Under the pieces are notes generated by a model, which saw only the letters and a list, made by a program, of their open reading frames with translations, was not told the origin of the DNA and did not search any database. From Norana najaformis (lineage: Eukaryota; Annelida; Clitellata; Crassiclitellata; Hormogastridae): a DNA stretch of 64,000 nucleotides. The stretch spans positions 8,609,306 through 8,673,305 of the forward strand of contig OZ029921.1 of the NCBI GenBank assembly GCA_964023275.1, written 5' to 3'. The position numbers and the translations under genes were made by a program. Shown piece after piece: positions 1-64,000 of the stretch. Numbering within the stretch: position 1 is the stretch's first letter; every line of letters starts with the position of its first letter.

Positions 1-141
1 GGTCTGTCGAATTCGGATACGGATGGCTGGTCACGGTCGACTGACTGCCCGCGCTCTGTTAAACGGGTGGAAGTAATAGAACCGGAAGTGGACACCGCTG
101 GTAGCCATCTATCGGCAATTCACATCCGACACAGCGCGAAG
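1..141 (+). CDS. Candidate exon 1 (5' truncated by window edge), cytoplasmic N-terminal segment
   Basis: Frame 1 is open from the window edge, beginning GLSNSDTDGW and ending HIRHSAK. After codon 47 comes AAG|GCAAGT, which matches the GC-AG donor consensus. If not spliced, the frame reaches TAA at 181-183, so this could instead be a 3' terminal exon of another transcript. The encoded segment is hydrophilic and has no recognisable domain. It ends in phase 0, as the exon at 10898 requires. The open part is short, so the call rests mainly on the donor and the phase match. Confidence 0.45.
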
Positions 142-1020
142 GCAAGTAACGGCAAGAAACAGGCACCAGTCTCGTCGCTTTAAAGGCGCACTTGGCCAAA
201 GTGGTAATGTAATGCAATGCTGTGTAGCCGAATGTAACTACAGTTTAAAAAACAAGGTTGTATAATGTTACTGGAGGGTAATCAGGCCTTTATGTAGCGA
301 CAACTAATTGAAGGGCGCTAACTAAATGCATTCGAAACTGAATGGAAGAATTCTCGTCAGGAGGAACGTCATATGTCGAAGATATGGCGAATGTGACACA
401 TTAAACACGGATGTTGCTTTTGAGAGGTATTTGAAAGACGCTATATAAATGTCCAGGTACAACAGTCAACATATGGGCTCCATGTGTTTCATCGCGGAGG
501 TTTAGCAATTGATGTGATAGAAAAGTAGGCCTAGTCTTTTTTGTCCATGTCTGTGATTAAGCCAAAAGATCTTTTCACTTCGGACTACATGCGAATGTAG
601 AATAAAATGTAAATGTACACGGTTTTATATAGCGCAGCATCTGGAGCCTAATACATCTGGAGCCGGATGACTTCTTTTGTGCCGACTGGTGTCTTGGCAT
701 TACCACAAATGTTGTCAAATGTAAACATATTTATTTAAATGTATATTTCGAGTTTACGATTACGATTAGACTCGATTACATGCCGAAACCACACAGATTT
801 TAATAACTAGAACACTCAGAAATATTGGCCATCAACCCACGTCCTTTAAACTTCTAAAGCTGGTCAGAAAAGAAAGAAATATTTGACATTCGTCATCTGT
901 CGTTGTCTCTATCTCCGCCTTTAAATTTCATTTATGCACAAGATTTACATATAATATTAAGAATAAACTAATTTATTCCCTGTATATCTTTAGCGTCGTG
1001 ATAGATGTTCATGGATGTAT
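142..1020. other. Intronic/unassigned, AT-rich, no feature seen
   Basis: No convincing exon, repeat or RNA gene is visible. AT-rich single-copy-looking sequence. Confidence 0.4.
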
Positions 1021-1034
1021 TTATAGTTAAGTTC

Positions 1035-1215
1035 AGAGTGACGAAGAGAGAGAGGACAGGGTGAGGGAGGGAGAGAGAGGGAGAGGGAGAGAGTGACGAA
1101 GAGAGAGAGTGACGAAGAGAGAGAGTGACAAAGAGAGAGAGAGAGAGAAGGAGAGGGGGAGAGTGATTGAGTGACGAAGAGTGACGAAGAGAGGGACGGA
1201 CGGACGGACACGGAC
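1035..1215. repeat. Purine-rich imperfect tandem (GAGAGAGTGACGAA-like)
   Basis: Nearly pure purine run made of GA repeats alternating with GTGACGAAGAGA blocks, ending in GGACGGAC repeats. Overlapping minus-strand serine/leucine-rich frames are low-complexity artefacts. Confidence 0.85.
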
Positions 1216-1220
1216 AGAAA

Positions 1221-2040
1221 TTGTGATTGATGTTTTGGAACCTTTTGTTAGGAGTAGCTGTGGTAAGCAGCGTCTGGAATAAAAGGTTACGCACTTTCTA
1301 AAAAGATTTCCTGAACGATAATAAGAGAATTTCGTCTCTTCAAACGACCAATTAAGCTTTGACCCGACCGCTGCCATTGGTCGCAGGGGTATTCTATCTT
1401 TTGTTTGCGTGCATAAATTTGCATAAATTGCTCAGGAGCGCGCAGGGGTTCGTCGTTTGTCCGTTGGACGTCAGACTGTTTATTTGCCTACGATTTATAC
1501 GGAATTTTATTCGACCGACCGAATGAACTTCCTAAAACCAAAATTGGCGTCACTGTTGTGACATCATCAAAAGGCAACGCGGAAGTGATGTTTTGTTCTT
1601 GTGTGTGTGTGTGTGTGTTGTCGTGGATTCCGTTGGAATTTCAAGACAAATGGCGTTTAGCGGAGGATGGAGGTTTGATTGCGTTCAGCGAAGTTGTTCA
1701 TCTACGATCGTTGGTCTTTCTAAGAAACGTTACCATACAGATTTGGACGCAACAAAGCATTTCTAATGCACCTACGGCTGCCAGATGCTTCCTGTGCGTG
1801 TGTGTGTGTGTGTAGGTAGGTGTATGTGTGTGATTGTTTTCAAGAACATCGCATTATTGACGTCGCCATCAAGATGGTGACCGTTAGTTGATAGATTTCA
1901 TCGGACATTCCTACACGCACCACTTACGCCTATACTGAAACGCAACGCCTCCCATCCATCAGCTGTTTTCTACCATTTTGTTCGACCCTGGTTTGGGTCT
2001 TCATGTTGCGAGCGCCACTGAAGAGTTTCCCACTTAAGGC
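1221..2040. other. Unassigned intronic sequence with short (GT)n tracts
   Basis: Two short (TG)n tracts at about 1598-1620 and 1794-1815. An 85-codon frame between them is bounded by the repeats and has no recognisable content. Nothing else seen. Confidence 0.4.
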
Positions 2041-2041
2041 G

Positions 2042-2530
2042 CTATATAAACAGGCTTACGATTACCGCTAGAGCAATGACTAATCGCCGATGGCAAATGA
2101 AAATTGGGTAACTTGTGGGTTTAATCGCTTGACAAAAGTAATATGACATGTGTTTTAGCTTGAGGTTCTGAAGACATTTGATTTGTGATATGACCCCTGA
2201 AAATAGCCACCAGTGTTTAATAGCCAGTCCTTCATAGCTTCTTAAAAGCTGTGATAGTGTCCGGTGTGACACTCGATCATCCAAACTATTCCACAAGTCT
2301 ACGACTCTTGCGCTGAAGAATTTTTGCCCTAAAGTTCCTTTTGGTTTCTTAAATAATTTATATTCTTAATTAATTTATATCTGTGGTCTTGGATCGTCTT
2401 GTTTAGTGCTAATTAAAAGAACCTCCCACTGCACTGCCTCGTTTTCATTGATAATCTTATGAGTGTCGATCAAGTCTCCCTCGTTTCTTCTTCTTTCCAA
2501 TTTTGTGAACCTACTTCTGGTCAGCCTTCT
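2042..2530 (-). pseudogene. LINE reverse-transcriptase C-terminal relic (jockey/CR1-like)
   Basis: On the minus strand the segment around 2340-2250 reads KFFSARVVDLWNSLDD, followed by a serine/arginine helix-like tail. This resembles the conserved 'FF..RVV..WNSLP' end of non-LTR retrotransposon ORF2. Upstream on the minus strand, around 2500-2400, RRNEGDLIDTHKI resembles the 'RRLRGDLIETYKI' motif of the same ORF2 region. Stops break the frame between the two motifs, so it is a decayed 5'-truncated insertion. The 3' side contains AAGGCGCTATATAAA (2036-2050 on +), a sequence found near other LINE ends in this window. Confidence 0.65.
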
Positions 2531-2559
2531 GTAATTGCAGCCCAGATCCTTCTATTCAA

Positions 2560-4190
2560 ATCATTTATCTAACTATTCTCTGCGCTTTCTTCAGAAACAA
2601 CCGAGCAGAAAATTCTCCTGATGTGAGAGTATCTTGCAGAGGATTTTCTGAAATTCGAATTCGATTATTTGGAGCCGTTGAATGAGTTCGCTCTCCAGCT
2701 GTCATTTGGACAGAATCCACGAATCATTTCGTACGAATCATTTCGGAATCAAGAAACAGGTGTAGGCGCCCATATGCAACCGTAATCTTATCTCAATGTT
2801 AACAAATGATTTGTGAAATAAGTTGGAACACACGGCTTTAAGTGGTTCGCTTTAACGGAGAAAATTTGCAGTATAGGCCTATTTACCAGCAAAGTTCGAT
2901 TTTCAATTATCTGTTTGTATATCCTGCTGCAACGATCGATTAAGAGCTTCTGATCAGTATAGGGCCTACATGTATGATCAATGAGGCTTTCGGAGGGAAA
3001 GTGATAGTGAAAAGATTTGACCCCATGATGAGAACGAATCGACTCCATCGCAGCAGCGGGTTTCCTAAAGATACCGGAAATCGCGGATCATGGATCCGAC
3101 AATATGTTCGATGACAAGATGGTTCGTCGGGTACAAGTGGCTTTCAGCGTGTGTCCAAATGGCTTGATCTGATTCGCTTATGGCTTGACAGGAGCTCAAC
3201 AGTAATTGTATCAGGCGAATACAGATTGGATCTCGATGGGAAAAGCCACGACGGCTGATCTTATAAGTTTATGCAAACCTCGTGCGTTGCACGTCAGACG
3301 TTTCACGACGAGAAACCCAATTGTCCTGCAAAGAATCGTAACAGCTCGAACCTCAGGCCAAAACAATATCCTTCGTCGATATTTTTTAGATACAGCAAGC
3401 ATATATTTAAAACTAACATTCGTCTGATCGACCTTATATACAGGATTGATTTGTGTGTGTGTGTGTATATATGTGCAAATATCAATCGTAGGCCTATATA
3501 TTGCGAGCTATATGTAGAACGTTTTATACAAAGTTAGTTTTAAATATAACACACTTGCTGCGTATATCCACGAAGAATCTTGTTTTGAATCTTGTTATAG
3601 AACCTTGTTATATATAAGAATCTTGTTATCTATATATACATGTACAATGGCAAATCGTCATATGCCAAATGCCACACATTAAATATCTTGATGCATTGTT
3701 GTGCGATTACGAATTTGACGACGTAAAGTAGGAACAGACTGACGCGCATGTCATAGGCCTTATAATTATGTAGGGCCTACAAGCGTAATTCTGGCATATA
3801 CATACCCTACATATGAATATATATATATATTATGCACATGCATGTATATATGCTATATATACACTGGACATATACAAGCGTTTTATATTTTCATATTATG
3901 CAGGTATAGGCCCTTTACCCGCACGGAGCCTACATCCTATACAATAGCGGATGTTGTACTACCACTTATTCATCTAATATACCGTCCACAATAAATTGTG
4001 GACAAGTTTTCTTTGTAATTTTTATCACCTAAATTACTATAGACCTATATAATATATATAATATATGTATATATTATATGCATAGTCTACATATATAAGA
4101 CATGCATTCAAACATAAAATATAGATGAAATGAAGGACATCAACACACTAAAAACTGATTCAAAGATAATAACATTGTGAATGTTATATA
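2560..4190. other. Intronic sequence, no gene seen
   Basis: AT-rich sequence with TAGGCCTA-type words and short (TATA)n and (GT)n tracts (3450-3470, 3815-3860, 4050-4080). Short ORFs here have no supporting signal. Confidence 0.4.
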
Positions 4191-4204
4191 TTTCATTCGG
4201 TTAG

Positions 4205-4490
4205 GTATACATTGGTTAAAGCGTACGTCAAGGCGCCTCGTTGCTTGGGATGCCGGTTCACATATCGATTGTGTCTATATTTCAGTGATTTTAATCTCGG
4301 GCTAGCACGGTCCGTATACTCGGGGACCTTAAATGGCGTGGCATCCATTCAAACGGGCAACGGTGGTGAAGGATCTCGCCCAATAAATTCATTGAAAAAT
4401 GAGCAAGGTCGAGGCTTTACGATGTCTATAGAAAAACGTGTACACTTACATATACATTTACATGTACATATACAATATACATTTAATAAG
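4205..4490 (+). mobile_element. tRNA-like SINE, family A copy 1
   Basis: Begins with a tRNA-like head: an A-box-like ATTGGTTAAAGCG and a B-box-like GCCGGTTCACATATCG. A conserved body follows: GATTTTAATCTCGGGCTAGC, CACGGTCCGTA, a GGCATCCATTCAAACGGGCA stretch, GTGGTGAAGGATCTCGCCC and a CTATAGAAAAACGTGTACA 3' end. The same order recurs at 15240, 26455 and, inverted, at 24920 and 31370. The 3' end runs into TACATATACATTTACATG, a candidate seed for (TACATA)n arrays. Confidence 0.75.
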
Positions 4491-4499
4491 GCTCTATGG

Positions 4500-6900: not shown

Positions 6901-6934
6901 CTACGGAAGTGCGAGTTAGATTGCGTCCGAAGTC

Positions 6935-7460: not shown

Positions 7461-7529
7461 TCAGGTTGTAGAATCAACGATTCTGCCTGCCAGAGGGGTA
7501 GCGTGACTTCGAACAGCGGATCTGAGGAA

Positions 7530-7530
<1 letters not shown>

Positions 7531-7573
<43 letters not shown>
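7531..7573. repeat. (TTA)n microsatellite
   Basis: About 14 uninterrupted ATT/TTA units. Confidence 0.95.
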
Positions 7574-7574
<1 letters not shown>

Positions 7575-7579
7575 TAGCA

Positions 7580-8940: not shown

Positions 8941-8955
8941 TTCTTCTCCACTTTA

Positions 8956-9403: not shown

Positions 9404-9514
9404 TAGTTTGTTCTATACTTTTCTCATGTACTCTACGCTTCTCTATTCGACCTACACTTTTATACTTGACTATAGTTTACTCTATTCTAGTCTGTTATAT
9501 TCTACTCTCGTATG

Positions 9515-15649: not shown

Positions 15650-18277
15650 TTTCACTGGCCAACAGAAAATTTTTTTTCTTGTTGCCTTCGGTTTTAGACC
15701 TGTTCTTGGGGTAATTTTGGGCGCTGATTCAGAAAATGTCATTGGATTGAGTGCATCAGGTCTAGTTTCTGAGATACCGTCGATTTTGTAAAGAAAACCC
15801 AGTCCACTCTTTAAACGATGTCTTTGGCAAAACTAAAATGTCATAATAAGCTTTATTTATGGCTAATTATAATTCTTGCTGATTCATATAATGCCTACAT
15901 CCTTATAATGTAAAATCAGCATATCTTGCCGCGTGCTGAGATATTGCTGATTCAACGAAATAACTATTCCGTAGCCTACAGCTTACTCAGCACTAAATTC
16001 ATGGCCTCATTTAGAATTTATTTGTGCTTATACAGCGTTTCATGGTTTCGAACTATGTAAATAGATTATGCTGAAGTCAGCATTTATAGCCTATATACAC
16101 CGCCTCCTGAAAGCTAGAGCAGCCGCAGTCGTCTTAGGGCATATTAAGAGTTGGTCGCAAGAACAATCTGTGAATGTGAGCATTAAATAACTACATGTTC
16201 TTACTATTTTTAGGTTAGTCATTTAATTCCTCAGATGCGAACATCCTTAAGGTTATGGCTACTTCCAGACGGAGCTGCATTAACCATCCAGACATATTCT
16301 GCTACATTTGTGGGGAATACGCACTAAAAGCAAACAGGAAACCGATTTCTGAGTTTGTAAAAAGAGCATATGTAGGTTATTTTGGTGTCAAACTTGGAGA
16401 TCAAGATAAGCAATGGGCTCCTCATACAGTATGCAAAACTTGTATTGAACAATTGCGCCACTGGACAATTGGAAAGAGAAGCTGCCTGAAATTTGGTGTA
16501 CCGATGGTTTGGAGGGAACAGATAAACCACTTCGACGACTGTTACTTTTGTATGGTTAATATCATAGGCATCAATCGAAATAATCGTCACAAGTTGTCTT
16601 ACCCTGATATACCTTCAGCCAGGAGACCTGTTCCGCATTCGGATATTGTACCAGTTCCACCTTTTCGCGAACTACCTCAGCTCTCAGACGATGAGACTTG
16701 CATGTCCAATATCGGACAAGATGACGAAAGTGAAGAAAGTGGGGGCAGTGACAGTGATTTCCAATCAACTTCACACAGTGAACGTTTTGACCAAAAAGAG
16801 TTGAGTGATCTGATCAGGGACTTAAATCTTTCCAAAGAGTCCTCTGAATTGCTTGCGTCCAGACTAAAGGAAAAGAATGCACTTCAGCCTGGAACGAAAA
16901 TTACAATTTATAGAAACAGAGAAAAGGATTTGCTGCCATTCTTTACCGAAGACAACAACCTAGTATTCTGTAATGACATCAGCAACTTATTGAAGAAAAT
17001 TGGTCTGTCGGATTACAGCCCAGATGAGTGGCGTCTTTTTATCGACAGTTCAAAACGTAGTCTGAAATGTGTGCTTTTAAATAACGGCAACAAATTTGGT
17101 TCTATTCCAATCGGTCACTCCACCAGGATGAAAGAAGAGTACAATGCCATCTCTTTAGTACTGGAAAAGATAAAATACAAAGAACATCAATGGGTAATTT
17201 GTGTAGACTTGAAGATGGTAAATTTCCTCCTTGGTCAACAAAGTGGCTACACAAAGTATCCCTGCTTTTTGTGTCTTTGGGACAGTAGAGCCAAGCATGA
17301 ACATTGGACAAGAAAAGATTGGCCTTCGAGGAAAGACATGGTGGTTGGAGCTCAAAATGTAATCAAGGAATCTTTGGTGGCACGAGATAGGATCATACTG
17401 CCACCACTACATATAAAGCTAGGCCTGATGAAACAATTTGTCAGGGCTTTGAATAAAGAAGGTTCATGCTTCGAATACATAGTACACAAGTTACCAGGAA
17501 TTACAATGGAAAAATTGAAGGCTGGAATCTTCGATGGTCCACAGATCAGGCAACTTATGAATGACCCACTTTTCATACCATCAATGAATGAAATCGAATC
17601 TTGTGCCTGGTCTTCCTTTGTTCTTGTAACTAAAAATTTTCTTGGCAACAAGAAGGCAGACAATTATGCACAACTAGTAGAGGATATGCTTCTTCATTTC
17701 AACAAGCTTGGCTGCAACATGAGCATTAAAGTCCATTATCTCCACAGTCACTTAGATCGCTTTCCAGAGAATCTTGGTGACTTCAGCGAAGAGCAAGGTG
17801 AAAGATTTCACCAAGACATCAAAACAATGGAAAATCGATATCAAGGAAGATGGGATGCACACATGATGGCAGACTATTGCTGGAATATTATGCGCGATTG
17901 TTCCGGCAGATGCCACACTCGGAAATCGTACAAAAGGAGCTTCTTCGGTGTCGAATGACTTGAAATTTTTATAACAAACTTGTTCTGTTTGGTATCATAT
18001 AAGTACAGTTTCAGGTACTACCATTTTCTTTTAAGTATTTGTATTATTATGTTTATTTAGTGTATCACATAATAAATTGAGCACTACATAATTATAGCTA
18101 TAGCCTTATGTTTTATGGGCGAGCAGAGGCAAGGACTGGTATATGGCATAATGTTCTATATCTCGAAAACTAGACCTGCTGGGAGAAAACTGGTGCCTTT
18201 TCTGGAATCAGCAGGTCAAATATACCCAGAAACAGTTCTAACATTTGAGGCAACAAATTATGTGTTGGCCAGTGTTT
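15650..18277 (+). mobile_element. Complete DNA transposon with CACTG termini (CMC/CACTA-like)
   Basis: The element runs 15653-18274 (2622 bp). The first 12 bases, CACTGGCCAACA, are the exact reverse complement of the last 12. Imperfect similarity continues inward for roughly 120 bp on each side, for example CAGGTCTAGTTTCTGAGATA near 15757 versus an inverted CAGGTCTAGTTTTCGAGATA near 18165. The flanks are TTT at 15650-15652 and 18275-18277, a possible 3-bp target duplication (weak on its own because both sides are T-rich). One uninterrupted ORF fills the middle. CACT-starting ends and 2-4 bp duplications are known for the CMC (CACTA, Mirage, Chapaev) superfamily; that placement is inference. 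Confidence 0.88.
16255..17958 (+). CDS. Transposase-like protein of the CACTG element, 567 aa
   Basis: Single-exon, intact ORF from ATG at 16255. N-terminal cysteine pairs (C16xxC19, C60xxC63, C96xxC99) with WAPHTVC, VPMVWRE and DDCYFC motifs suggest a zinc-binding N-terminal domain. An acidic serine-rich linker (about 150-180) follows. The C-terminal two thirds may be an RNase H-like catalytic core: D264 in LFIDSSKRSLK, D318 in ICVDLKM, then a CxxC knuckle (C337, C340 in YPCFLC), and E512/E516 in SEEQGERFHQD. Proteins with this motif order are common as uncharacterised products in arthropod and cnidarian genomes (from memory). Location between matched inverted repeats makes a transposase role likely. 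Residue assignment is inference. The frame is undisturbed, suggesting recent activity. Confidence 0.85.
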   Translation: MATSRRSCINHPDIFCYICGEYALKANRKPISEFVKRAYVGYFGVKLGDQDKQWAPHTVCKTCIEQLRHWTIGKRSCLKFGVPMVWREQINHFDDCYFCMVNIIGINRNNRHKLSYPDIPSARRPVPHSDIVPVPPFRELPQLSDDETCMSNIGQDDESEESGGSDSDFQSTSHSERFDQKELSDLIRDLNLSKESSELLASRLKEKNALQPGTKITIYRNREKDLLPFFTEDNNLVFCNDISNLLKKIGLSDYSPDEWRLFIDSSKRSLKCVLLNNGNKFGSIPIGHSTRMKEEYNAISLVLEKIKYKEHQWVICVDLKMVNFLLGQQSGYTKYPCFLCLWDSRAKHEHWTRKDWPSRKDMVVGAQNVIKESLVARDRIILPPLHIKLGLMKQFVRALNKEGSCFEYIVHKLPGITMEKLKAGIFDGPQIRQLMNDPLFIPSMNEIESCAWSSFVLVTKNFLGNKKADNYAQLVEDMLLHFNKLGCNMSIKVHYLHSHLDRFPENLGDFSEEQGERFHQDIKTMENRYQGRWDAHMMADYCWNIMRDCSGRCHTRKSYKRSFFGVE

Positions 18278-19904: not shown

Positions 19905-21520
19905 CTGCCCCGCGACGTGGCTTTCTTTGAGAGCTGTAGAAATCTCGGAATTACGATTACGATATAGATGAGGACATTTTCTCAAATATATGTTTATAGT
20001 TATTGTGCATTTAGATGACGCAGTTCTCATGTTTAGAAGATCTTTAATGAATCTGACCAATTTTCAAGGCTTAGATCTAGTTTTAAAGAACAGTTCTTCG
20101 TGGTTTTTGAGCGGACGAGGTTCGAAATTGAACGATGAATTTTGAGTCGAACACCATTGCAAATGTTTTTTATCGCGGTTCTTTATTAAGCGAAACCGCG
20201 TGAGTTTCAGCTCTGAATCCTGATTCTCAGCACAGCCAGTGCAGTTTGTTCGAGTGATCATTGGTTATGATGGTTTCCCGCGCAAAATCGCGCATCTGGT
20301 GAACAGAGATCAGATTTCAGAAGCGGCTGATTACATGGACAGTCTGCACGAAAAACTGTCCGAAATCATCTAATTTCGGCATCGGCCTTTGATCTCTTTG
20401 TCCTCTGACGGTCGGTGGCATCGGAGGCCGTTGTCTGCGACCGGCGCCTTTCAAGAGCCGCCCTAGTAAATTCGGCGCCAGGGACCGTTCTAAGAATACA
20501 AAATGAAGATGGAAAAAAAGGAAAAGGGGCTGTGAAGATGAATGCAGCGTACCCGGTGGCCGGCTCTGCTGCCTCTGCTCCACCCACCCGTCCCATTCAA
20601 CTCTTCCAACAGGAAATTAATGAGTCTCCTACGAATTCTTTGTCTCGCCCGACTGAGGCATCAGACAAACAGCGCAGAACGTGACTTCCCTCTACTTGCT
20701 TACTTACTATCATGCGAAACAGACTCTGGCCACACTGGACCCTCATCGATCGGTGGTCGACCTCCGATCTTAATGTCTAGTGTGAACAAAAACTTCCTAT
20801 AAACAAAGCTTGTCAAGTGATCATTGTGGCTGAGAACCACTACTTATAGATAGCTATCTTACAGCGCCTTTTGAAGTTCCTAAAAGGCGCTACATAAGTG
20901 TTCATATACACATGTATATGCACACACAAATACACACGTGCATACATACATATAATTTAGCGTGGTCTCTTGTCAGACATACATTAGTTTCTATTTATAT
21001 GTATGTATATATATAAATACATATATACATACATACATACATAGGGCCTACATAGATACATACATACATACATACTGATCTATGTCTATCTAAAGACAGT
21101 TGTAAATTGTAAAGGAATTCCACGGTGAAATGCGCTTTCCACTATTAGGAAATTCATGCTGGCATAGATAGACCAAACGTGTGCATGCTGTCAGCATACG
21201 ATGCTGTAGACCGCCCGGAGACTGCACGAACGTGGCGTCATAGAAGTCAATGGATTAGACACACAGTACTCGGAGCGCCTACTCCTTGGCCGACGGATAT
21301 GCCATTTTTATAGCGCCTGCAACAAGGTTGAGCTGAAGCCTTTGTTTGCTTTCGAACGAGGCGAAAATTAATGAAAGTTGCCGGGGAATCGCTCAGGCGG
21401 CGCGACCAGCAAATCGACTTTTCTCGCCTGTTCTCTAGGAAGAGGTTCACTCGTCAGCTGCGCTGGGAAAATAAAAGAGAACGCCGTCCAATTAAACTTG
21501 TTTATATTGTCTGATTGATG
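19905..21520. other. Intronic sequence, no gene seen
   Basis: A GC-richer patch (20360-20700) gives overlapping 65-90-codon frames on both strands with no motif. TACATA/CATA words at 20900-21080. LINE-tail-like AAGGCGCTACATAAG near 20883. Confidence 0.35.
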
Positions 21521-25381: not shown

Positions 25382-25604
25382 GGCAGCCAGAGAAGACGCA
25401 GGACACGAGCTTTGGTCGTCGTTTTGGGCTGCCTAGGAGTGGCGATCGCTCTGATCTCCGCAGCAATCGTCACTTGCATCCATCGCAGCCTTAAAAACGA
25501 CATCGAAGATGCGGGAGATCAAAGCGGCAGCAGCAGCAGCCGAGGGAACAGCATCTCTCAACGAACGACAACACATCCATCATTTGACCTCGCAACATCA
25601 ATCG
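25382..25604 (+). CDS. Candidate exon 3, basic motif plus first transmembrane helix
   Basis: Acceptor TTTGAACGCAG|GGCAG and donor ATCG|GTAGAT; phase 0 in, phase 1 out. The 74 codons start GSQRRRRTR, followed by a ~24-residue hydrophobic helix (ALVVVLGCLGVAIALISAAI plus VTCI, residues about 10-33), then HRSLKNDIED and a Ser/Thr-rich stretch. The RRRR cluster before the helix predicts cytoplasm-in orientation by the positive-inside rule, so the N terminus would be cytoplasmic and everything after extracellular. The out phase equals the in phase of the exon at 46060. The donor is only moderate. If unspliced, the frame stops at 25610-25612. Confidence 0.6.
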
Positions 25605-26669: not shown

Positions 26670-27545
26670 GGGAAAACGAACCAGACGACTTCTGAAATTT
26701 AGACCTGAATGACATGAAATGTGACGGATATTGTTCAGTTGCCATGTGATATCTTGTAATTACGTTTAACTCTTTTATTAACTACCAACTACCATAATAG
26801 GCCTACGATAAAAAAATCAACGGAGAGTCACTGCTGAAACGTCTATCTTTTAATCGTAATGTCTGCTCTGCGACGCCGAAGCTCTGACGTCACATCAACG
26901 ACTATATATCAACCAGAGTCATCGTAACTACGAATGAGTCTAATCTATGTCCAGTCCTTGACAAACTGAGCTTTTAATTCCCGAAGCATCATTCCAGCCA
27001 TCGAGAACACCAAGAGCATCAAACTATCCATGTCCGAGACAAAACAAGATTCAAAGCAATCGAGTAAAACATTTGTCTGATCTGAGGGTTGAGCAATGAA
27101 AAAAACAGGGCGGCAGATTTGATTATAATGTCTCGTAAGCTGTGAGGCAGATTTTATATTGAATTCTCGGTCTCACTATGCAGTCAGTGTCTTCTCTAAT
27201 GAAACTCAGATGTGTTCATGTCATACTTCGACCGAAAACACTATAGGACTCGCATGTTTTCTCAGTTTGCTGTTCACTTTCATCCGCTGCTTTAATTTTC
27301 CGATGTTATTGAGATAAATTTGTCTTTTTCTCTTATACTCGCTTTTTTGTCACTACTGACCTGTGTAAAAAATGGACGCCTTAATGTGTGCTAAAATAGA
27401 GGTGCTATAGAATATTCCAGATTAATTTAGACAGGATTCGATTAGTTTAGACGCATAAATATATGTTACATCCATATGAAGCATAAGCAACTGCGGTGTG
27501 TAAACATATACTATATATAAATCATATAATGTTTCATATCTCTAC
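26670..27545. other. Intronic sequence, no gene seen
   Basis: AT-rich, no exon or repeat identified. Confidence 0.4.
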
Positions 27546-27550
27546 ATATA

Positions 27551-27936
27551 TACACTGTGTCCGGAAAAATTCCAAGGCTTTACGGTAAATATGAAAATAA
27601 TTAGTAAACATTAATCGATTTTTAAAATTCCAAAAACAGTTTAATCCTGAAATATATAATTACCAACAAAATTCTTTGTAATTTATTAACGGCCCCCGTT
27701 TAAAATTACGTCACAGTGACGTATTTGAATTTTATATTTTGTAAAGAAAGTTGCTAGAAAAATGGCGTTCAGCGAGGAAGACAAAATTGTTATAAAATTT
27801 TTACGCCAAAACAACAATTATAGTGCAAATAATATTTCAGGATTAAACTGTTTTTGGAATTTTAAAAATCGATTAATGTTTACTAATTATTTTCATATTT
27901 ACCGTAAAGCCTTGGAATTTTTCCGGACACAGTGTA
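27551..27936 (+). mobile_element. Tc1/mariner-type MITE with ~110-bp inverted repeats
   Basis: The element is 27553-27934 with TA on both sides. The left arm CACTGTGTCCGGAAAAATTC, continuing through GGCTTTACGGTAAATATG and AACAGTTTAATCCTGAAATAT, recurs essentially unchanged and inverted at the right end, about 110 bp per arm. The interior keeps a transposase start: ATG at 27762 then AFSEEDKIVIKFLRQ, resembling the first helix of Tc1/mariner-like transposases. Coding is lost where the right arm begins. An internal-deletion derivative of an autonomous element; near-identical arms suggest recent insertion. Confidence 0.9.
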
Positions 27937-28009
27937 TTTTAGTATTTAATCGTAAACTCGTGATTTCTACAGCGCCCAATGAAGGCTAAGTCGGAGGAAC
28001 CAACTTGTT

Positions 28010-42898: not shown

Positions 42899-45565
42899 TG
42901 AATGGCTGAGAATAAATCTCTCGGTGAGGGATGGCCTGAGCCAATGAAGGGCTTGTTCCTCCCTTCCGAATGGCTGAGAATAACTCTCTCGGTGAGGGAT
43001 GGCCTGAGCCAATGAAGGGCTTGTTCCTCTCTTCCGAAAGGCTGAGAATAACTCTCTCGGTGAGGGATGGCCTGAGCCAATGAAGGGCTTGTTCCTCTCT
43101 TCCGAATGGCTGATGAATAAATCTCTCGTGAGGGATGGCCTGAGCCAATGAAGGGCTTGTTCCTCTCTTCCGAAAGGCTGAGAATAACTCTCTCGGTGAG
43201 GGTTGGCCTGAGCCAATGAAGGCCATGTTCCTCCCTTCTCAATAGCTGAAAATAAATCTCACGGTGAGGGATGGCCTGAGCCAATAAAGGGCTTGTTCCT
43301 CCCTTCCGAATGGCTGAAAGTAAATCTCTCGGTGAGGGATGGCCTGAGGCAATGAAGGCCTTGTTCCTCCCTTCCGAATGGCTTATGAATAAATCTCTCG
43401 GTGAGGGATGGCCTGAGCCAATGAAGGCCATGTTCCTCCCTTCTCAATAGCTGAAAATAAATCTCTCGGTGAGGGATGGCCTGAGCCAATGAAAGCCTTG
43501 TTCCTCCCTTCCGAATGGCTTATGAATAAATCTCTCGGTGAGGGATGGCCTGAGCCAATGAAGGCCTTGTTCCTCCCTTCCGAATGGCTTATGAATAAAT
43601 CTCTCGGTGAGGGATGGCCTGAGCCAATGAAGGCCATGTTCCTCCCTTCTCAATAGCTGAAAATAAATCACTCGGTGAGGGATGGCCTGAGTCAATGAAA
43701 GCCTTGTTCCTCCCTTCCGAATGGCTTATGAATAAATCTCTCGGTGAGGGATGGCCTGAGCCAATGAAGGCCATGTTCCTCCCTTCTCAATAGCTGAAAA
43801 TAAATCTCTCGGTGAGGGATGGCCTGAGCCAATTAAGGGCTTGTTCCTCCCTTCCGAATGGCTGAAAGTAAATCTCTCGGTGAGGGATGGCCTGAGCCAA
43901 TGAAGGCCTTGTTCCTCCCTTCCGAATGGCTTATGAATAAATCTCTCGGTGAGGGATGGCCTGAGCCAATGAAGGCCATGTTCCTCCCTTCTCAATAGCT
44001 GAAAATAAATCTCTCGGTGAGGGATGGCCTGAGCCAATGAAGGGCTTGTTCCTCCCTTCCGAATGGCTTATGAATAAATCTCTCGGTGAGGGATGGCCTG
44101 AGCCAATGAAGGGCTTGATCCTCCATTCAGAATGGCTGATGAATAAATCTATCGGTAAGGGATGGCCTGAGCCAATGAAGGGCTTGTTCCTCTCTTCCGA
44201 ATGGCTGAAAGTTAATCTCTCGGTGAGGGATGGCCTGAGCCAATGAAGGGCTTGTTCCTCTCTTCAGAATGGCTGATGAATAAATCTCTCGGTAAGGGAT
44301 GGCCTGAGCCAATGAAGGGCTTGATCCTCCCTTCAGAATGGCTTATGAATAAATCTCTCGGTGAGGGATGGCCTGAGCCAATGAAGGGCTTGATCCTCCC
44401 TTCCGAATGGTTGAGAATAACTCTCTCGGTGAGGGATGGCCTGAGCCAATGAAGGGCTTGATCCTCCCTTCCGAATGGCTTATGAATAAATCTCTCGGTG
44501 AGGGATGGCCTGAGCCAATGAAGGGCTTGATCCTCCCTTCAGAATAGCTGATGAATAAATCTCTCGGTGAGGGATGGCCTGAGCCAATGAAGGGCTTGTT
44601 CCTCTCTTCCGAAAGGCTGAGAATAACTCTCTCGGTGAGGGATGGCCTGAGCCAATGAAGGCCTTGTTCCTCCCTTCCGAATGGTTGAGAATAACTCTCT
44701 CGGTGAGGGATGGCCTGAGCCAATGAAGGGCTTGTTCCTCCCTTCCGAATGGTTGAGAATAACTCTCTCGGTGAGGGATGACCTGAGCCAATGAAGGTCT
44801 TGTTCCTCCCTTCCGAATGGTTGAGAATAACTCTCTCGGTGAGGGATGGCCTGAGCCAATGAAGGCCTTGTTCCTCCCTTCCGAATGGTTGAGAATAACT
44901 CTCTCGGTGAGGGATGGCCTGAGCCAATGAAGGCCTTGTTCCTCCCTTCCGAATGGCTTATGAATAACTCTCTCGGTGAGGGATGGCCTGAGCCAATGAA
45001 GGTCTTGTTCCTCCCTTCCGAATGGTTGAGAATAACTCTCTCGGTGAGGGATGGCCTGAGCCAATGAAGGCCTTGTTCCTTCCTTCCGAATGGTTGAGAA
45101 TAACTCTCTCGGTGAGGGATGGCCTGAGCCAATGAAGGTCTTGTTCCTCCCTTCCGAATGGTTGAGAATAACTCTCTCGGTGAGGGATGGCCTGAGCCAA
45201 TGAAGGGCTTGTTCCTCCCTTCCGAATGGTTGAGAATAACTCTCTCGGTGAGGGATGGCCTGAGCCAATGAAGGGCTTGTTCCTCCCTTCCGAATGGTTG
45301 AGAATAACTCTCTCGGTGAGGGATGGCCTGAGCCAATGAAGGTCTTGTTCCTCCCTTCCGAATGGTTGAGAATAACTCTCTCGGTGAGGGATGGCCTGAG
45401 CCAATGAAGGCCTTGTTCCTCCCTTCCGAATGGTTGAGAATAACTCTCTCGGTGAGGGATGGCCTGAGCCAATGAAGGTCTTGTTTATCACTTCCGAATG
45501 GCTGAAAAATAAATCTCTCGGTGGGGGATGGTATGAGCCAATGAAGGGCTTGTTCCTCCCTTCCT
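42899..45565. repeat. Minisatellite, ~68-bp unit, about 39 copies
   Basis: Unit approximately GAATGGCTGAGAATAACTCT, CTCGGTGAGGGATGGCCTGA, GCCAATGAAGGGCTTGTTCC, TCCCTTCC. Units differ at a few sites (GGTTGAGAATAA, CTTATGAATAA, TCTCAATAGCTGAAAATAA, GGCC/GGGC/GGTC). In 43230-44020 the TTCTCAATAGCTG variant recurs about every 205 bp (three units), a higher-order period. The minus strand of the unit has no stop in any frame, so artefactual ORFs of up to 330 codons (repeating GREEQ.LHWLRPSLTER) appear. Unit length is not a multiple of three, so these frames rotate and should not be annotated as genes. Confidence 0.97.
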
Positions 45566-50121: not shown

Positions 50122-50316
50122 ATTTGCCATCTTCGGTGCTTAAGGAGGTCGAAGGTTGTAGGACTGAGCACCAGTGTCCTTCTTTGTCGGTGGAGAACCA
50201 GCGTCCTCCTGCGTCGACTGCAGAGAACCAGCCTTTGGTTGTCGTCTGCCGTTCCAACCCGGAGTCATGCTTCTGTCCGCGAGGGTATGACATGCATGAC
50301 GACGAATGTCACGCGA
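50122..50316 (+). CDS. Candidate exon 5, EGF-like cysteine cluster
   Basis: Acceptor AATTTCTTTCAG|ATTTG and donor GCGA|GTAAGA, 195 nt, phase 1 in and out. Starts LPSSVLKEVEGCRTEHQC and ends with VVVCRSNPESCFCPRGYDMH then DDEC. The C-x4-5-CxCxxGY spacing followed by a later Cys resembles the second half of an EGF-like module. A Pro/Asn-rich linker precedes it. Cysteines and phase 1-1 borders fit a modular extracellular protein. Confidence 0.75.
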
Positions 50317-50319
50317 GTA

Positions 50320-54870: not shown

Positions 54871-54883
54871 TTTCACTTTTCAG

Positions 54884-54925: not shown

Positions 54926-54934
54926 GTCAGTTAA

Positions 54935-56480: not shown

Positions 56481-56487
56481 TATCCAG

Positions 56488-56764
56488 GGATGCGAGTGGA
56501 ATCGTCTTCCAACGTGTTTATGGAAAACCTTCACGGTACCAAGAAACTGGAGACTACATTCTACGTGACTGATCGCAAACAGCTGACGGATTTCTTTTGG
56601 TTTCGCGAGTCTGGAATCCGGGTGAACATCGGACTCCAGAACATCAACGTCATCCCAGTCTATGAAGACGTCGACCATTTGAGTGACAACAACTTCGTCC
56701 TCGGAAATCCTAACACCATCGAAGAGAAGGAACAGTTCAGAACCATCACGCAGACACACTGCAG
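56488..56764 (+). CDS. Candidate exon 9, ectodomain
   Basis: Acceptor TTCTTTATCCAG|GGATG and donor TGCAG|GTGACC, 277 nt, phase 1 in, 2 out. 92 codons: MRVESSSNVFMENLHGTKKL, then ETTFYVTDRKQLTDFFWFRE, SGIRVNIGLQNINVIPVYED and an acidic C-terminal part ending QTHC. The alternating hydrophobic pattern suggests beta-strand structure. No family recognised. The codon composition is clearly different from the AT-rich introns on either side. Confidence 0.8.
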
Positions 56765-56769
56765 GTGAC

Positions 56770-57870: not shown

Positions 57871-57874
57871 GTAG

Positions 57875-58049
57875 GCATCCAATGCCCGACTTCTACAGCC
57901 TGACGCTTGAAATATCGAAGGACCGAACGACGTTTGTTCGAAGCGAAGTCTGCAGCGTCGAGATGTTCAGTCGCGGAGGCTGTCCTGAAGGCGCCTCGGT
58001 CGGAGAGAGGTTTCTGCGACGCTCACTGAACGAACCCTGCCATGACATG
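57875..58049 (+). CDS. Candidate exon 10, ectodomain with cysteines
   Basis: Acceptor GTTCGTTGTAG|GCATC and donor CATG|GTAGGC, 175 nt, phase 2 in, 0 out. Reads HPMPDFYSLTLEISKDRTTF, then VRSEVCSVEMFSRGGCPEGA and ends LNEPCHDM. Three cysteines. GC-rich coding-like composition. Confidence 0.8.
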
Positions 58050-58059
58050 GTAGGCCTCA

Positions 58060-58200
58060 TCGTGCGCTACATGATGAGGCTCATGGTTGAGATGATGATG
58101 ATGACAATGATGAAGATATGCTGGTGGCAATGACTACTACTACTACTTCTACGACTACTACGACTACTACTACTACAACGACGACGACGACGATGGTTAT
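58060..58200. repeat. (GAT)n then (CTA)n/(CGA)n triplet repeats
   Basis: GATGATGATGATGACAATGAT at 58090-58115, then CTACTACTACTTCTACGACT-type triplets to 58195. Confidence 0.9.
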
Positions 58201-58421
58201 GATGATCGATTCTTTTCTTCATCTTTCCTGAGCTTCTGCCTTTCTCAACGTGTTTCTATCGTGTATCTTGTTTGTCTTGGGTCTTTAAAGTCTGCCTGCG
58301 TTGTTTACTTTTTGAGTAATAATAATGATAATGCTAACAATAACAACATAATAATAATAATAATTTAATTTATATATGTTTACTTCTGTCAGTCAGTGTC
58401 TGCGTGTTTGGATGTGTGTAG

Positions 58422-58611
58422 GGCAGCTTTCCAGACGCTCTCCGTCCGGCGGCCAACAGCATCGTCTGCTCCGAGGGCAACCACCTGTTGCGTCACCTGT
58501 TCAACACCACTCCAGCCCCTGTCCGTCCCATCACCTTCCCTCCGAAGCACTGCCGCACCGCCACAGCCTCCTGCAAACACTGCATAGACCTCAAGCAATG
58601 CCACGACACAG
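58422..58611 (+). CDS. Candidate exon 11, Cys-rich ectodomain, GC donor
   Basis: Acceptor GTGTGTAG|GGCAG and donor ACACAG|GCAAAC (GC-AG class), 190 nt, phase 0 in, 1 out. Starts GSFPDALRPAANSIVCSEGN and ends CRTATASCKHCIDLKQCHDT. Six cysteines, of which five fall in the last 22 residues, plus one sequon (NTT). Without the GC donor the frame runs into a (CAT)n His run and then Val/Ile repeats, which looks non-coding. No GT donor near the end restores phase with exon 12. Confidence 0.75.
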
Positions 58612-58614
58612 GCA

Positions 58615-58780
58615 AACATCATCATCATCATCATCATCATCATCGACGTCACCTCGTCATCGTTGTCGTAATCATCACCATTATCATATATACATCGTCT
58701 TCATTTTCATCGTAGTCGTTGTCATCATTATCATGGTCGTCGTCTTCATCATCTTCTTCGTCATTGTCAGTTATGTCGTC
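58615..58780. repeat. (CAT/CGT)n triplet repeat
   Basis: ATCATCATCATCATC run then TCGTCATC/GTCGTC variants directly after the GC donor of exon 11. Confidence 0.88.
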
Positions 58781-59010
58781 GTCGTTATCTTGATCATTGA
58801 AAAAGCAATGTCTTCGTCAACAACAGTGTGGTCGTCGTTAATTTCTTCGATTCTTATGACATCTAAAAGAGATTTTAAAGAGATTATCGTTTCGTTTGAG
58901 TCATATGCTAAAGAATATTGAAGCGTTTTGATTTATATTTGCGAAGTATTACAGTGTAATAATGTTTTTCGGATTTCAATTTCTCTGACCAGTTGCTGTT
59001 TGCCAAATAG

Positions 59011-59106
59011 GGGCTGATTGCTGTCAGCTTGACTGCTTTAGTACTCCAGACTGCAAGCTAAGTGCGTCGAACGAGTGTAGCAACGTGCCAATTACATGTG
59101 CTATGG
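59011..59106 (+). CDS. Candidate exon 12, Cys-rich ectodomain
   Basis: Acceptor TTTGCCAAATAG|GGGC and donor ATGG|GTAAGC, 96 nt, phase 1 in and out. Reads ADCCQLDCFSTPDCKLSASN, then ECSNVPITCAM: six cysteines in about 32 residues, presumably disulfide-bonded. Confidence 0.8.
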
Positions 59107-59109
59107 GTA

Positions 59110-59711
59110 AGCGACAGGATGTCACATCATATTGGGTATGGTGCGTATGATATGGTATGTTATGCAGTGGTGTAGCTAAGGGGGGTCAGTGGACGGCATT
59201 GTTTGGAGTTTGCTGCAGCTGTTGCTCTTTTCTATCACAATTTCCTACACTTAGTTTCTGTTGGTTTATTTCTGATAAAGACAAGCGACGAGCACAGAGT
59301 GATGAACAAAACACACTAAAATTGGATGATACACCTTTTTATAATATTTCACGACTTTTTGACTCATGCCTACAGTAATACAGTGGCCTCGCTAAACTTC
59401 TCCTAATGCCGGCCATCCCAGCCAGCACATGCGCAATGGAGCAGTGTTGGACTAACGTTTCTCCAACATTGTCCCAGGGTGCGTTTGTGCTGGCCGGGTT
59501 GGCCTTAGGGAAAGTTCAGCAAGGCGAATGCCTAGGGCCTCAGTCTTATGCTAAGACCTGACGCTTTGGTCCTGAAGCTATAGCATGCTTATAGTTGGTT
59601 GTTGAAAGATAGATGTTCTTCTTTATTAACCCAGAGAGGGATGAAGTTTTGATCTGATACGAGCAATATTGCAATATTTCATCCTGCAAGACAGAGAGGG
59701 GGATAGGACGC

Positions 59712-59798
<87 letters not shown>

Positions 59799-59930
59799 GG
59801 TCAATTCAACTCCAGAACTGAAACACGAAAGGCCCATTTTCAGCTCAATCAATAACAATGGATTGAAGTGAAAATGAGCCTCACACAGACATAAAGTGAA
59901 CTGTTGCGATACATTGCTTGGATCGTTTCA
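59110..59930. other. Intron with a long (GA)n tract
   Basis: (GA)n occupies 59715-59795. The preceding 73-codon ORF at 59157-59378 is unsupported. Confidence 0.6.
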
Positions 59931-59931
59931 G

Positions 59932-60564
59932 GAGAGGCTTATAGGTTCACCCTGCAACCTGTCTTCCTGAATCTCCAGCGCGAGTATCGCTGCCACATTC
60001 GCCAGGTGGCGCCGGATGTCCTCTACCAGCTCTGGTTCTACGTGACGGTCACAACGTCCGACTTCGAGACGCCTCGGGTGTTCGTCACGATCCGCCAGAG
60101 AGATGTCGCCAGTCTGCGCTCTGGGCGGTTCCAGTTCCACTTCCTGTCGGTGGAACACAGCAGCGGACTGCGCACCGACGATGAGCTGATCCTCAGCGGA
60201 CACTTCCACCATCCCACTGGCACCTGGAACTACTCCACTCGTCCTACGCAACCAGAGCGTCCTTCCGGTTCGGCCACCGGAAGTGCCCTGCCCAACGCGA
60301 CGAGCGTCCACGGCATCTCAAATAGCGTCTTCATCCTGTCGACTGAATTCGACGAACCTTTCGCCTACAGCACTTCGACCTGGGTCGACGAGGACAGCTG
60401 CCAGAAGGACGTCCGGAAGTTCCGCCCCGCTGGGTCGTGGGCCTCGGCCTCGGCCTCCGCTGCCGAAAGCGTGAACATCGTTTCGCAGACGTCCACTGAG
60501 AAAGCCTTCGAGTTCGCTCTCAAGTCAGTCGCCAACCCACCTGTCATGAGGTTCACAGTACCAG
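59932..60564 (+). CDS. Candidate exon 13, largest ectodomain exon (211 codons)
   Basis: Acceptor ATCGTTTCAG|GAGAG and donor CCAG|GTCACC, 633 nt, phase 1 in and out. Begins EAYRFTLQPVFLNLQREYRC, then VLYQLWFYVTVTTSDFETPR, VFVTIRQRDVASLRSGRFQF and a long Ser/Thr-rich part ending NPPVMRFTVP. Repeating hydrophobic/polar alternation suggests a beta-sandwich. Sequons NYS and NAT. Distinctly GC-rich with strong codon bias, unlike the flanking introns. No family recognised. If unspliced, the frame ends at 60621-60623. Confidence 0.88.
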
Positions 60565-60599
60565 GTCACCCGCTCGCTTTTCTATTATATAGTCTGTTC

Positions 60600-60840
60600 A
60601 TGTTTGTTCTGTATCAATCTTAGATTACCCAGTCTTTTAATTGGTTGGACCATCTCTTTGGAATGACCATCCTTTGTCCTTCTGGCCAGGGATGCTATGC
60701 ATGCATCTCTCATCATCAAGGAAGCAGCTCTGCGTCGCTCGGGCTGGGCTGGGTGGGAGCGCCTCTTAATAGGTATGTTGAAAGGGTGCTATATAAATTC
60801 TTTGAATGAATGAATGAATGAATGAATGAATAAATGAATC
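60600..60840 (+). repeat. Probable LINE 3' tail with (AATG)n
   Basis: GGGTGCTATATAAATTCTTT followed by a GAATGAATGAATGAAT run (60806-60830). Similar GCGCTATATAAA-like words end other LINE relics here, so this is likely a 5'-truncated non-LTR end with its tandem tail. Confidence 0.5.
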
Positions 60841-61004
60841 ATGTATGTTCCCTTCTCTATGATGCGTTTTTCTGTTTTAATATTCCAATTTATTCTTTTA
60901 TATTCTATGGTTTTATGTTTGTTCTGTTGGTACCGTTATGTTCTGCTGTGTTTCTCTTTTCTTTATATTCTAATGTGTTCTGTTGCGATAGTTAGCTATC
61001 CAAA

Positions 61005-61115
61005 CACTTAATATAGCGCCTTTTAGGTACCCCCTACACTAGCCTAACTGTTATTAAAGTCAGTAATAAAGAAACGTTCGTCAATAAGCCAACAATGCTT
61101 AGATAACTAGAAGTG
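61005..61115 (+). repeat. Dispersed repeat family C, copy 3
   Basis: CACTTAATATAGCGCCTTTT, then GTCAATAAGCCAACAATGCT and TAGATAACTAGAAG, aligning with 49562-49690. Confidence 0.65.
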
Positions 61116-61119
61116 TCAC

Positions 61120-61855
61120 CACTGACGGACCCCCGCACACACGAGACACCCAACCGACGGAGTCCCATCCAGAGTTTACAGGTGACACAATGTTCGGGTG
61201 GCCTGGACCGACTTGAAATCGAAGACGACGAACGACGATGGGCGATGATGTCCACGCTACACGATGCTACCACCGTCCACCAGTCCCTCCCTCGTAAATG
61301 GTAGAAGACAGAAACCTCCCGAACACGACATGCATTTACCGCACGTTGCAGAAGGTACCTCTCGGTGATTGACGGTCTACACCATTCCTAAGACCTCTTG
61401 CCCTTCCGTCACCGAATCCAAGATTTCCCAGTCACAGACGGCGTAAATAGGTATGTAGGTTGAGGCTCGACTATCCGGCTGAGAACCTGAAAAGTAACCA
61501 GTCCAACTTTAACCAGTTCGTCTCAACGTGGATTCGATGACACGCGACCGAATTACGTCGGAAACGTTTAAAGAATATATAGATCTAAAAATGCCGACTT
61601 AGTGACTGTGGTAGTCCGAACATATAAGAACTATCGAGAAAAATCCAGGTTGAGACGAACAATTTGCCAGAAACAGCAGAATTCTGATAATTCTGATAAA
61701 TTTGATTCTGTTCTGTTCTGCTTGTCTCCACTTCATCGATTACTGAGTGCCTTGCTGTGCGTCGACTGAAGACTGAGTCACGTGATAATGTTGACGGATC
61801 TGATCAGATGCATCAGATCCGTTCAAATCCTTTGAGAACAGTTCTTCTGTTTCTT
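61120..61855. other. Intron, no exon accepted
   Basis: A GC-richer patch 61113-61304 is open for 63 codons but its phases do not fit (see rejected items). Confidence 0.4.
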
Positions 61856-61861
61856 TAACAG

Positions 61862-61984
61862 CCAATGCGTCTTTGTTGCGCTGGTGGTTCGAGGACAAGG
61901 AATCGTCTCTTCTCCTCGACGACTCCTTCTCCACCAGCCTCGTCCTCAACGCTGACACGAAACTCTGGCAGATTCTTGTCTCCG
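61862..61984 (+). CDS. Candidate exon 14, ectodomain
   Basis: Acceptor TGTTTCTTTAACAG|CCAAT and donor TCCG|GTGAGG, 123 nt, phase 1 in and out. Reads NASLLRWWFEDKESSLLLDD, then SFSTSLVLNADTKLWQILVS, with a sequon at its start (NAS). Another frame also lacks stops for a while, but only this one fits both neighbours. Confidence 0.8.
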
Positions 61985-61989
61985 GTGAG

Positions 61990-62900
61990 GCATCATTTTC
62001 AGAGTCCCTCAAGAGATCGATTCGTTACAATTAATCTTCTATTGCATGTAACTATTACTCTCCCCGACTGTAATCTGCTGTAATCTAGTCTAAAGACTTC
62101 TATAGCGCCGTTATCATAATGCTCAGGGCATCAGTCGATGTTCGCTTCAAGTCAGAATTGCAGTCAAAATCACAATCCGTTGGAGAAGCTAGGCTGAATT
62201 CCGATAGGTCAGAGAAGCCAGAAGCCAGGTAACGGTGGATATTGTATTGTATTGTATTTGTTAACTTATATAGCGCTTCTTACAGAACAAAAACTACTCA
62301 TAGGCGCTTCCAGCATGAGGACAAGCCGTTGAATGCAGAATTTCAAACCAAAACAACGCGTCGCCCAACTTCCGGTCTTCTCAAGATGACTTTACCCCTC
62401 CCCCCGGATTCCAACCTGGCACCGAAACCAAACAACCAGGCTCTTGCGGACTTGATTTGATATAGCGCCGGTGTTAAGTTGGTCTTCCAAAAGCGACTTT
62501 TGTGCAGCGCTGATAAATTTCGGAGGTTTACATTTACATTACATTATAGGATATATTTAAAACGCTGCTATCGGACCCAATCTGATCTCATGTTTTTTTT
62601 TTTTTGGTTGGCTTCAATCTGATCTAAACTGATCTAATATTACATGATCTTGTTCTGTCTACTCCGTTCTGTTCTATTCCACTGACTTCTTCAGCATCGT
62701 TGTAATAACGAGTACGCCTACAAAAAGTGCCAAGACATCGATCTCAAGACAAGACATCGATCTCAAGACAAGACATCGATCTCAAAGTCGCAAAGCGAAA
62801 CCCTGCATATGGCATTTTATCGCCTCGCATAAAACTGCTGAAGAATGTGTATCGGATGCTTTGAATAGATTTTGACCTGAAAGCGTCTTCTTTGCATGTC
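61990..62900. other. Intron with repeat family E and an 18-bp triplication
   Basis: (GTATT)n at 62240-62262, family E copy at 62415-62540, a T11 run at 62593, and CAAGACATCGATCTCAAGA repeated about three times at 62731-62782. Confidence 0.6.
62415..62540 (+). repeat. Dispersed repeat family E, copy 2
   Basis: GGCACCGAAACCAAACAACC, GGCTCTTGCGGACTTGATTT, GACTTTTGTGCAGCGCTGAT and AAATTTCGGAGGTTTACATT, same order as 41390-41530. Confidence 0.6.
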
Positions 62901-62903
62901 CAG

Positions 62904-64000
62904 GGTACGTGGTTCCGTGTCCAGGATACTTTTCGGTGACGGTCGTTGATCGAACCGACAGAGAAGAACTCTTCAACTTCGACGTCCTCGTCTCCTGTCC
63001 CTCCTTCTTCAACCTCTCCTTCTTCCTGCCGACCGGATGGACGACCGGCCCCTCCTCGTTCGATGACCGAACCTTCGAAGTCACTTTCAACGACGGTAAG
63101 CGAAGCCACAGCGTCTTCCTGACCCACTTCCACTTCCGTTCCTCAGCCTCGTCGTCCCGCATAAAGTCCAGCACAGACCACGAGGACCTCGCCATTCCCG
63201 ATTCCCCGACCTTGACCCTGACCTTGTACCTGCTTGTCGTCGCAGTGACGCTGACCTGCGTCGTCTATCCGGCTGTTCGCGTGTCCCTCGTCGTAGGAAA
63301 CGCCGTTGCTATTTCCAAGCGTCGCCATGACTACGGTAAAACCGAGTCGGCGCGATCCGACGATCCAGAGAATGCTGTGGCTGGGATACTTCCGGTTACC
63401 GGTGACTCTTCTGCGGCGGTGGATCTGGAACGTTGGAAGAATTGTCAGTCGGAAATGGAGGGTGGTAAATTGTGTGAATGTGTTGACAGTTCGTTGGCGA
63501 AGCCCCGCTGCACCCCCGCCCGCCTCAACATCTACGACAGACCCCAATCGACTGACGTACGGCTCCCGAATAACACAGACGAGGCCGTCGATGAGAGGAA
63601 GGAAAACTCCACCGACGGATCTATGGAAAATCATTCCGATTCCATCAGAACGACCGAGGCCGAGAAACGAGTTGTCCATCGGTCGGAAGAGCAACAACCG
63701 GGTTTCATCGATCCAAAAACGACGGATGCTGCTGCGGCTGATCAAAGCGACGAGACAAAGAAGGCTCGAAAGCTGACATCAAAGCAGCCGACGCCGCCTC
63801 GTGTCTTACTCGTGTGCTACGTAGTGTTACGCGTAACTTGCGCTGTTACGCTTACGTTTACAGTGGCGGCATCTGTGGTCGGATACTACCTCGAAGCTGG
63901 GTTCAAATCCGACTTTCCCGCTGTGCTGCGTTCGCTGTATCTTGGACAAGGCGCAAGGCTGGGTCAGCTGGCTGTTCGACACATAGAAGAAGAGGTTCTC
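62904..64000 (+). CDS. Candidate exon 15 (open at window edge), TM2, cytoplasmic loop, TM3
   Basis: Acceptor CATGTCCAG|GGTAC, phase 1. 365 codons are open to the last base of the window. Begins YVVPCPGYFSVTVVDRTDRE; residues 1-100 are beta-like ectodomain with two Cys and a sequon (NLS at 36). Residues about 102-131 (TLTLTLYLLVVAVTLTCVVY and following) form TM2. Residues about 132-298 are a charged Ser/Asp/Glu/Lys-rich loop starting SKRRHDYGK, predicted cytoplasmic. Residues about 299-328 (RVLLVCYVVLRVTCAVTLTF and following) form TM3, then YLEAGFKSDFPAVLRSLYLG. No stop or donor before the edge. Composition and length make this the most secure part of the gene. Family not recognised. Confidence 0.88.

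Follow-up and report, generated by a model that had tools for sequence, protein, structure and literature searches.

A predicted five-pass, PDZ-anchored surface protein of Norana najaformis and its multigene family

We analysed a 64,000-nucleotide stretch of the genome of the annelid Norana najaformis (the window; GenBank assembly GCA_964023275.1, contig OZ029921.1, C9:8609306-8673305 in a 608-Mb genome of 17 contigs), and comparison with other parts of this genome indicates that it carries the 5' two thirds of a real, spliced animal gene that encodes a large protein of the cell surface. The same comparison makes the gene one of at least 15 loci of a multigene family, and overall we think it probable that this is an uncharacterised PDZ-anchored five-pass adhesion or receptor family. 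Every + strand open reading frame (ORF) of window positions 18001-64000, together with a 10-kb continuation, was compared with two paralogous regions of 30 kb each, P1 (C9:9123001-9153000) and P2 (C16:12208001-12238000). Seven exons, B, C, D, E, F, H and G, are matched in both regions with order and strand kept, and most of the remaining rows of that comparison are repeats and low-complexity matches. Once N1 and three exons past the right edge are added, eleven exons (N1-B-C-D-E-F-H-G-X1-X2-X3) join in phase into 1,646 stop-free codons that end TETKV-stop. They are listed below with entry and exit phases and, where given, identity to P1 / P2; coordinates past 64000 continue the window numbering into the DNA downstream.

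50122-50316, + strand: exon N1, phase 1-1, N-terminal and Cys-rich, ends CRSNPESCFCPRGYDMHDDECHA; acceptor 5.8, donor 1.3
56488-56764, + strand: exon B, phase 1-2, best-conserved block of the ectodomain; 61% / 67%
57875-58049, + strand: exon C, phase 2-0, ectodomain; 55% / 60%
58422-58611, + strand: exon D, phase 0-1, ectodomain; 54% / 52%
58993-59106, + strand: exon E, phase 1-1, Cys-rich; 47% / 35% over 34 / 31 residues
59932-60564, + strand: exon F, phase 1-1, ectodomain block of about 210 residues; 40% / 46%
61862-61984, + strand: exon H, phase 1-1, contains LLRWWFEDKESS; 41% / 55%
62904-64476, + strand: exon G, phase 1-2 (1-open inside the window, whose edge is 64000), membrane-proximal ectodomain, first transmembrane segment (TM-a), cytoplasmic loop, TM-b and the start of the first outer loop
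67577-68679, + strand: exon X1, phase 2-1, beyond the window
69997-70173, + strand: exon X2, phase 1-1, beyond the window
71679-72058, + strand: exon X3, phase 1-stop, beyond the window

Some of these boundaries are better defined than others. The right boundary of exon D (58611) was set by phase and homology at an apparent GC donor, CACAG/GCAAAC, with a CAT run right after it, and the left edge of exon E was placed at a weak acceptor (score 0.7). Exon H was also chosen by an exon-chain search, and the frame of exon G stays open past the right window edge. Exon N1 is supported by one paralogue: the best window site for the N1 peptide of P2 is 50122-50316, with a score of 56 against 36 for the runner-up.

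An earlier, preliminary description of this DNA had proposed a single spliced gene of fifteen phase-joined exons, listing the phases without exon coordinates; here we matched that phase list to the sequence, and about half of it holds. The last seven exons (B to G) have exactly the phases given (1-2, 2-0, 0-1, 1-1, 1-1, 1-1, 1-open) and are matched in two paralogues, and N1 is matched in one, whereas the first three (0-0, 0-0, 0-1) and about four of the 1-1 exons have no paralogue match. The idea of one spliced gene is borne out by the homologous exons lying in order at P1 and P2. So is that of a large Cys-bearing ectodomain, which from N1 to TM-a comprises 676 residues, among them 26 Cys, and bears 5 N-glycosylation motifs. 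The membrane segment, loop of about 165 residues and further membrane segment described after it all fall in exon G, where the loop measures about 170 residues, and the expectation that more would follow is confirmed by the end of exon G together with X1, X2 and X3.

The family extends well beyond P1 and P2. Exon B, with the consensus VESxSxxFMENxHxxxxLETTxYVTDxKQxTDFxWFRxSGIRxNxGL, occurs at 15 genome loci including the window, and the 14 others are 49-70% identical to it, none of them with an internal stop. The in-window protein of exon G (358 residues) has matches at 12 other loci, all with E no higher than 1.8e-5 and covering its first 68-123 residues, leaving out two further matches (E 0.77 and 0.88); exon F matches 13 other loci, nine over almost the full exon and four in pieces, one of which (C2:31.11) has two internal stops, leaving out one further match (E 0.82). 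The exon B loci on C5 and C12 were missed by the exon G search, and that on C12 also by the exon F search. Contigs C2, C4, C9, C15 and C17 each hold at least two members, some of them close together (C4 at 17.22 and 17.37 Mb, C15 at 3.43 and 3.51 Mb) and those on C17 and C9 megabases apart. In a tree of 12 exon G sequences, five members, one from each of these contigs, group together with support 0.924, a pattern that would fit the copying of an old pair onto several chromosomes.

Homologous exons in the same order at other loci are a stronger argument for a gene than are compatible phases, and the way in which these exons have diverged adds to it. Among the four exons examined in this respect (B, C, D and H), codon positions 1, 2 and 3 of exon B are identical at 0.75-0.79, 0.76-0.86 and 0.40-0.46, and C and D are similar. 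By this comparison exons B, C and D vary freely at third codon positions, a pattern that argues for selection on the protein.

The joined protein has five hydrophobic segments, starting at residues 677, 869, 1221, 1378 and 1546, with TM-a and TM-b in exon G, TM-c and TM-d in X1 and TM-e in X3. P1 and P2 hold five as well, in matching exons, when overlapping hits are merged and one P2 hit at the start of the X3 frame (acceptor) is omitted. The predicted inner loops of the window gene are about 170 and 140 residues long, and the predicted outer loops about 330 (TM-b to TM-c) and 150 (TM-d to TM-e). The C termini are TETKV in the window gene, SETDV in P1 and CETNV in P2, and four more end in SETKV (C2:30.9, C4:17.2 and C3:40.6) or CETNV (C15:3.4). 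Thus an ET[KDN]V end is present in 7/7 members examined, four of which came from a search that favours it, though the tails diverge. The end fits the class I PDZ ligand, which the abstract of PMC4381219 gives as X-S/T-X-V/I/L-COOH. As a control, 538 window ORFs of 50 residues or more were checked: 21/538 end in [ST]x[VIL] and 0/538 in ETxV.

These features suggest how the protein might work. Because P2 opens with a likely signal peptide, we picture an N-out five-pass protein whose chain would enter the endoplasmic reticulum by such a peptide, with the ectodomain and both large loops presumably facing outward and the Cys-rich ectodomain binding either a ligand or a partner carried by another cell. 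The scaffold proteins Dlg, PSD-95 and Scribble favour ETxV, and since this end is constant amid divergent tails, it would be expected to dock to PDZ scaffolds of that kind, and hence to place the protein at junctions or synapses; docking would fix it at a junction, a synapse or some other polarised patch. The N-terminal EGF and TNFR-like modules of paralogues could then vary binding, while the membrane part and the docking end stay constant.

Several observations weigh against this reading, or at least against parts of it. The gene model was built by sequence comparison, and the PDZ partner, the ligand and where the protein is expressed are inferred. Several splice sites score poorly (-0.6 for the D acceptor, a GC donor for D, and -0.1 for the donors of F and X2), and exon H is nearly without codon-position bias (0.57/0.68/0.55 over 40 codons). 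A convincing signal-peptide exon for the window gene was sought between 18.3 and 50.1 kb and not found. EGF and TNFR-like exons were sought between N1 and B in the window copy, also without success, so the modules may not matter there, and the TNFR_c6 match of P2 spans a manually made peptide join. The four extra C termini came from an ORF search that selected for an [ST]x[VIL] end plus a hydrophobic segment and so favours the motif, and their exons were identified by place, hydrophobic segment and ending only; each of the four stretches has one ETxV end, and two of them also listed one non-ETxV ORF each.

We next consider known families. Pfam has no family above cut-off for the conserved core (about 600 residues) or the membrane half of three members, and in the PDB no chain matches exon G, the core alignment or the membrane-half alignment, in keeping with the preliminary description, which could assign no family and called for such a profile search. 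Weak Pfam matches (XS, JSRP, Toxin_18, ZrgA, VirB8 and others) were all under cut-off and were discarded, and five PDB matches of exon X1 (E 0.072 or worse, the best to TOM22) include an acidic run and were taken as chance. IMG/VR and the GTDB genomes, viral and prokaryote collections that are silent on other animals, gave no confirmed relative, and the titles and abstracts of the literature searched announce no such family.

Prominin-1/CD133 (PF05478) comes closest in plan. Passages of PMC10967083 describe it as having an outer N terminus, five transmembrane segments, two large outer loops, an inner C terminus and, in some splice variants, PDZ-type ends, and the window gene resembles it in its five hydrophobic segments and PDZ-type end, and in a predicted outer N terminus, inner C terminus and two large outer loops. 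It differs in its large, Cys-rich N-terminal outer domain and, in the window copy, in its larger inner loops. The Tweety homologues (TTYH) also have five transmembrane segments (title of PMC8327215) and share the title of PMC11405016 with prominin 1, although the window family has no Pfam or PDB match. One might thus take the family for diverged prominin- or tweety-type proteins, in which the ectodomain was added to a five-pass part that serves to bend or organise membrane protrusions, as would suit a plan equal to that of prominin-1 (in the passages cited) and the equal number of hydrophobic segments in three members. We regard this as unlikely, given the missing Pfam and PDB matches of the membrane half, the inner loops of the window gene (not small, at about 170 and 140 residues) and the behaviour of the prominin profile itself. 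PF05478 has no hmmscan match at E<=1 in the membrane half of three members, and when the genome was searched with it exon by exon, it gave 18 matches, nine of them over cut-off (on C16, C11, C5, C12 and C10; best E 3.2e-99), with 0/18 at the 15 exon B loci. The family may work like prominin in the membrane; by sequence comparison, it is no prominin member.

The second comparison concerns the N-terminal modules. EGF_CA is over its cut-off of 27 bits in both P1 (40.9 bits) and P2 (39.4 bits), which also carry two short N-terminal Cys modules, and on manually joined peptides TNFR_c6 (Pfam cut-off 29.4) reaches 30.7 bits in P2 and 28.8 bits in P1. These N-terminal EGF_CA and TNFR-like Cys modules recall the TNF receptors (PF00020) and the EGF-module receptors (PF07645), but the core of about 600 residues matches neither, and a search for the modules in the window copy gave none. 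TNF receptors pass the membrane once, whereas five hydrophobic segments are present here.

Taken further, the PDZ-anchored reading leads to an undescribed animal receptor family, with an ectodomain of its own fold, a prominin-like five-pass part unrelated by sequence, a constant ETxV end, exchangeable EGF/TNFR-like fronts and at least 15 loci, a possibility that we put forward only tentatively. That large surface proteins from 15 loci should lack both a Pfam domain over their core and a solved relative is a real annotation gap, and if the likeness to prominin and TTYH were true at the structural level, the five-pass plan would have arisen or diverged more than once.

The N terminus also separates our model from the earlier one, which had a cytoplasmic N terminus and a first membrane segment (TM1); read as a type II start encoded near 25.4 kb, this would make the window copy a six-pass protein. 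One doubtful exon fits that start:

25382-25603, + strand: doubtful exon, phase 0-1, open, encodes RRRRTR and a hydrophobic segment; acceptor 1.6, donor under the -1 cut-off

Its hydrophobic segment follows RRRRTR, its phase 1 exit suits N1, and the vain search of 18.3-50.1 kb for a signal-peptide exon speaks in its favour. Its donor is poor, however; the segment is unique in the genome, where a second copy was sought and none found, and unless further exons intervene, an intron of 24.5 kb would separate it from N1. P2, the sole paralogue whose 5' end was read, opens differently. Its first exon starts with ATG, encodes MHRVTLLVFCLTGVIMSSTYALC..., by eye resembles a signal peptide, contains no 19-residue segment above the transmembrane threshold, and exits in phase 1 to meet the N1 acceptor in phase; the N1 exon of P2 follows it, starting at P2 6743. 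We therefore consider the cytoplasmic N terminus and TM1 unproven or probably wrong and a six-pass window copy improbable. The best non-repetitive signal-peptide candidate in the window, at 20542, scored only -0.2 and was rejected.

A decaying pseudogene copy, in which the start and the EGF and TNFR-like exons have been lost, would account for the three expected exons and the 5' exon that were not found, as well as for the weak splice sites. We think this very unlikely, with 1,646 codons free of stops and the TETKV end intact; moreover, N1 exits and B enters in phase 1, so that loss of the modules between them keeps the frame.

Finally, that the window holds a chance chain of open segments and no gene is almost certainly wrong: shuffled sequences do yield phase-compatible chains of 23 to 33 segments, but they cannot account for ordered homologous exons with codon-position bias at other loci. 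Under lax splice-site criteria, and without a real coding score, the best phase-compatible chain has 32 segments on the + strand and 18 on the - strand, and the same search in 4 dinucleotide shuffles gave the range just quoted, so we rejected phase compatibility as proof of a gene. With a coding score (exon penalty 6) trained on exons F and G, both outside the scored interval 1-59800, the + strand scores 81.7, the - strand 22.4 and 6 shuffles at most 24.8, an excess to which segments of low complexity and minisatellite sequence near 42-45 kb contribute. Chance is thus refuted for the seven exons matched in both paralogues (B to G), and it may stand for most of the first seven exons of the preliminary description.

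Other features of the region are listed here.

15653-18276, + strand: DNA transposon-like element of about 2.6 kb, with ends CACTGGCCAACA and TGTTGGCCAGTG and one ORF of 567 residues
27487-27986, + strand: encodes MAFSEEDKIVIKFLRQNNNYSAN..., with a 72-residue match at 97% identity in the P1 region
42900-45564: minisatellite, 39 copies of a 68-bp unit, 92% match
75857-77092 (window numbering), just downstream of the gene: long intronless frame, seven-pass-receptor-like by eye

By its look, the stretch at 27487-27986 is presumably a transposon remnant. The best Pfam hint for the 567-residue ORF of the transposon-like element is zf-AD, below threshold. This ORF (1,704 nucleotides) has a match of about 100% at all 40 places scored out of 913 candidates, the window copy included, and seven other copies of the element are 99.6-99.8% identical over 2.46-2.63 kb, near-identity that points to a very recent burst.

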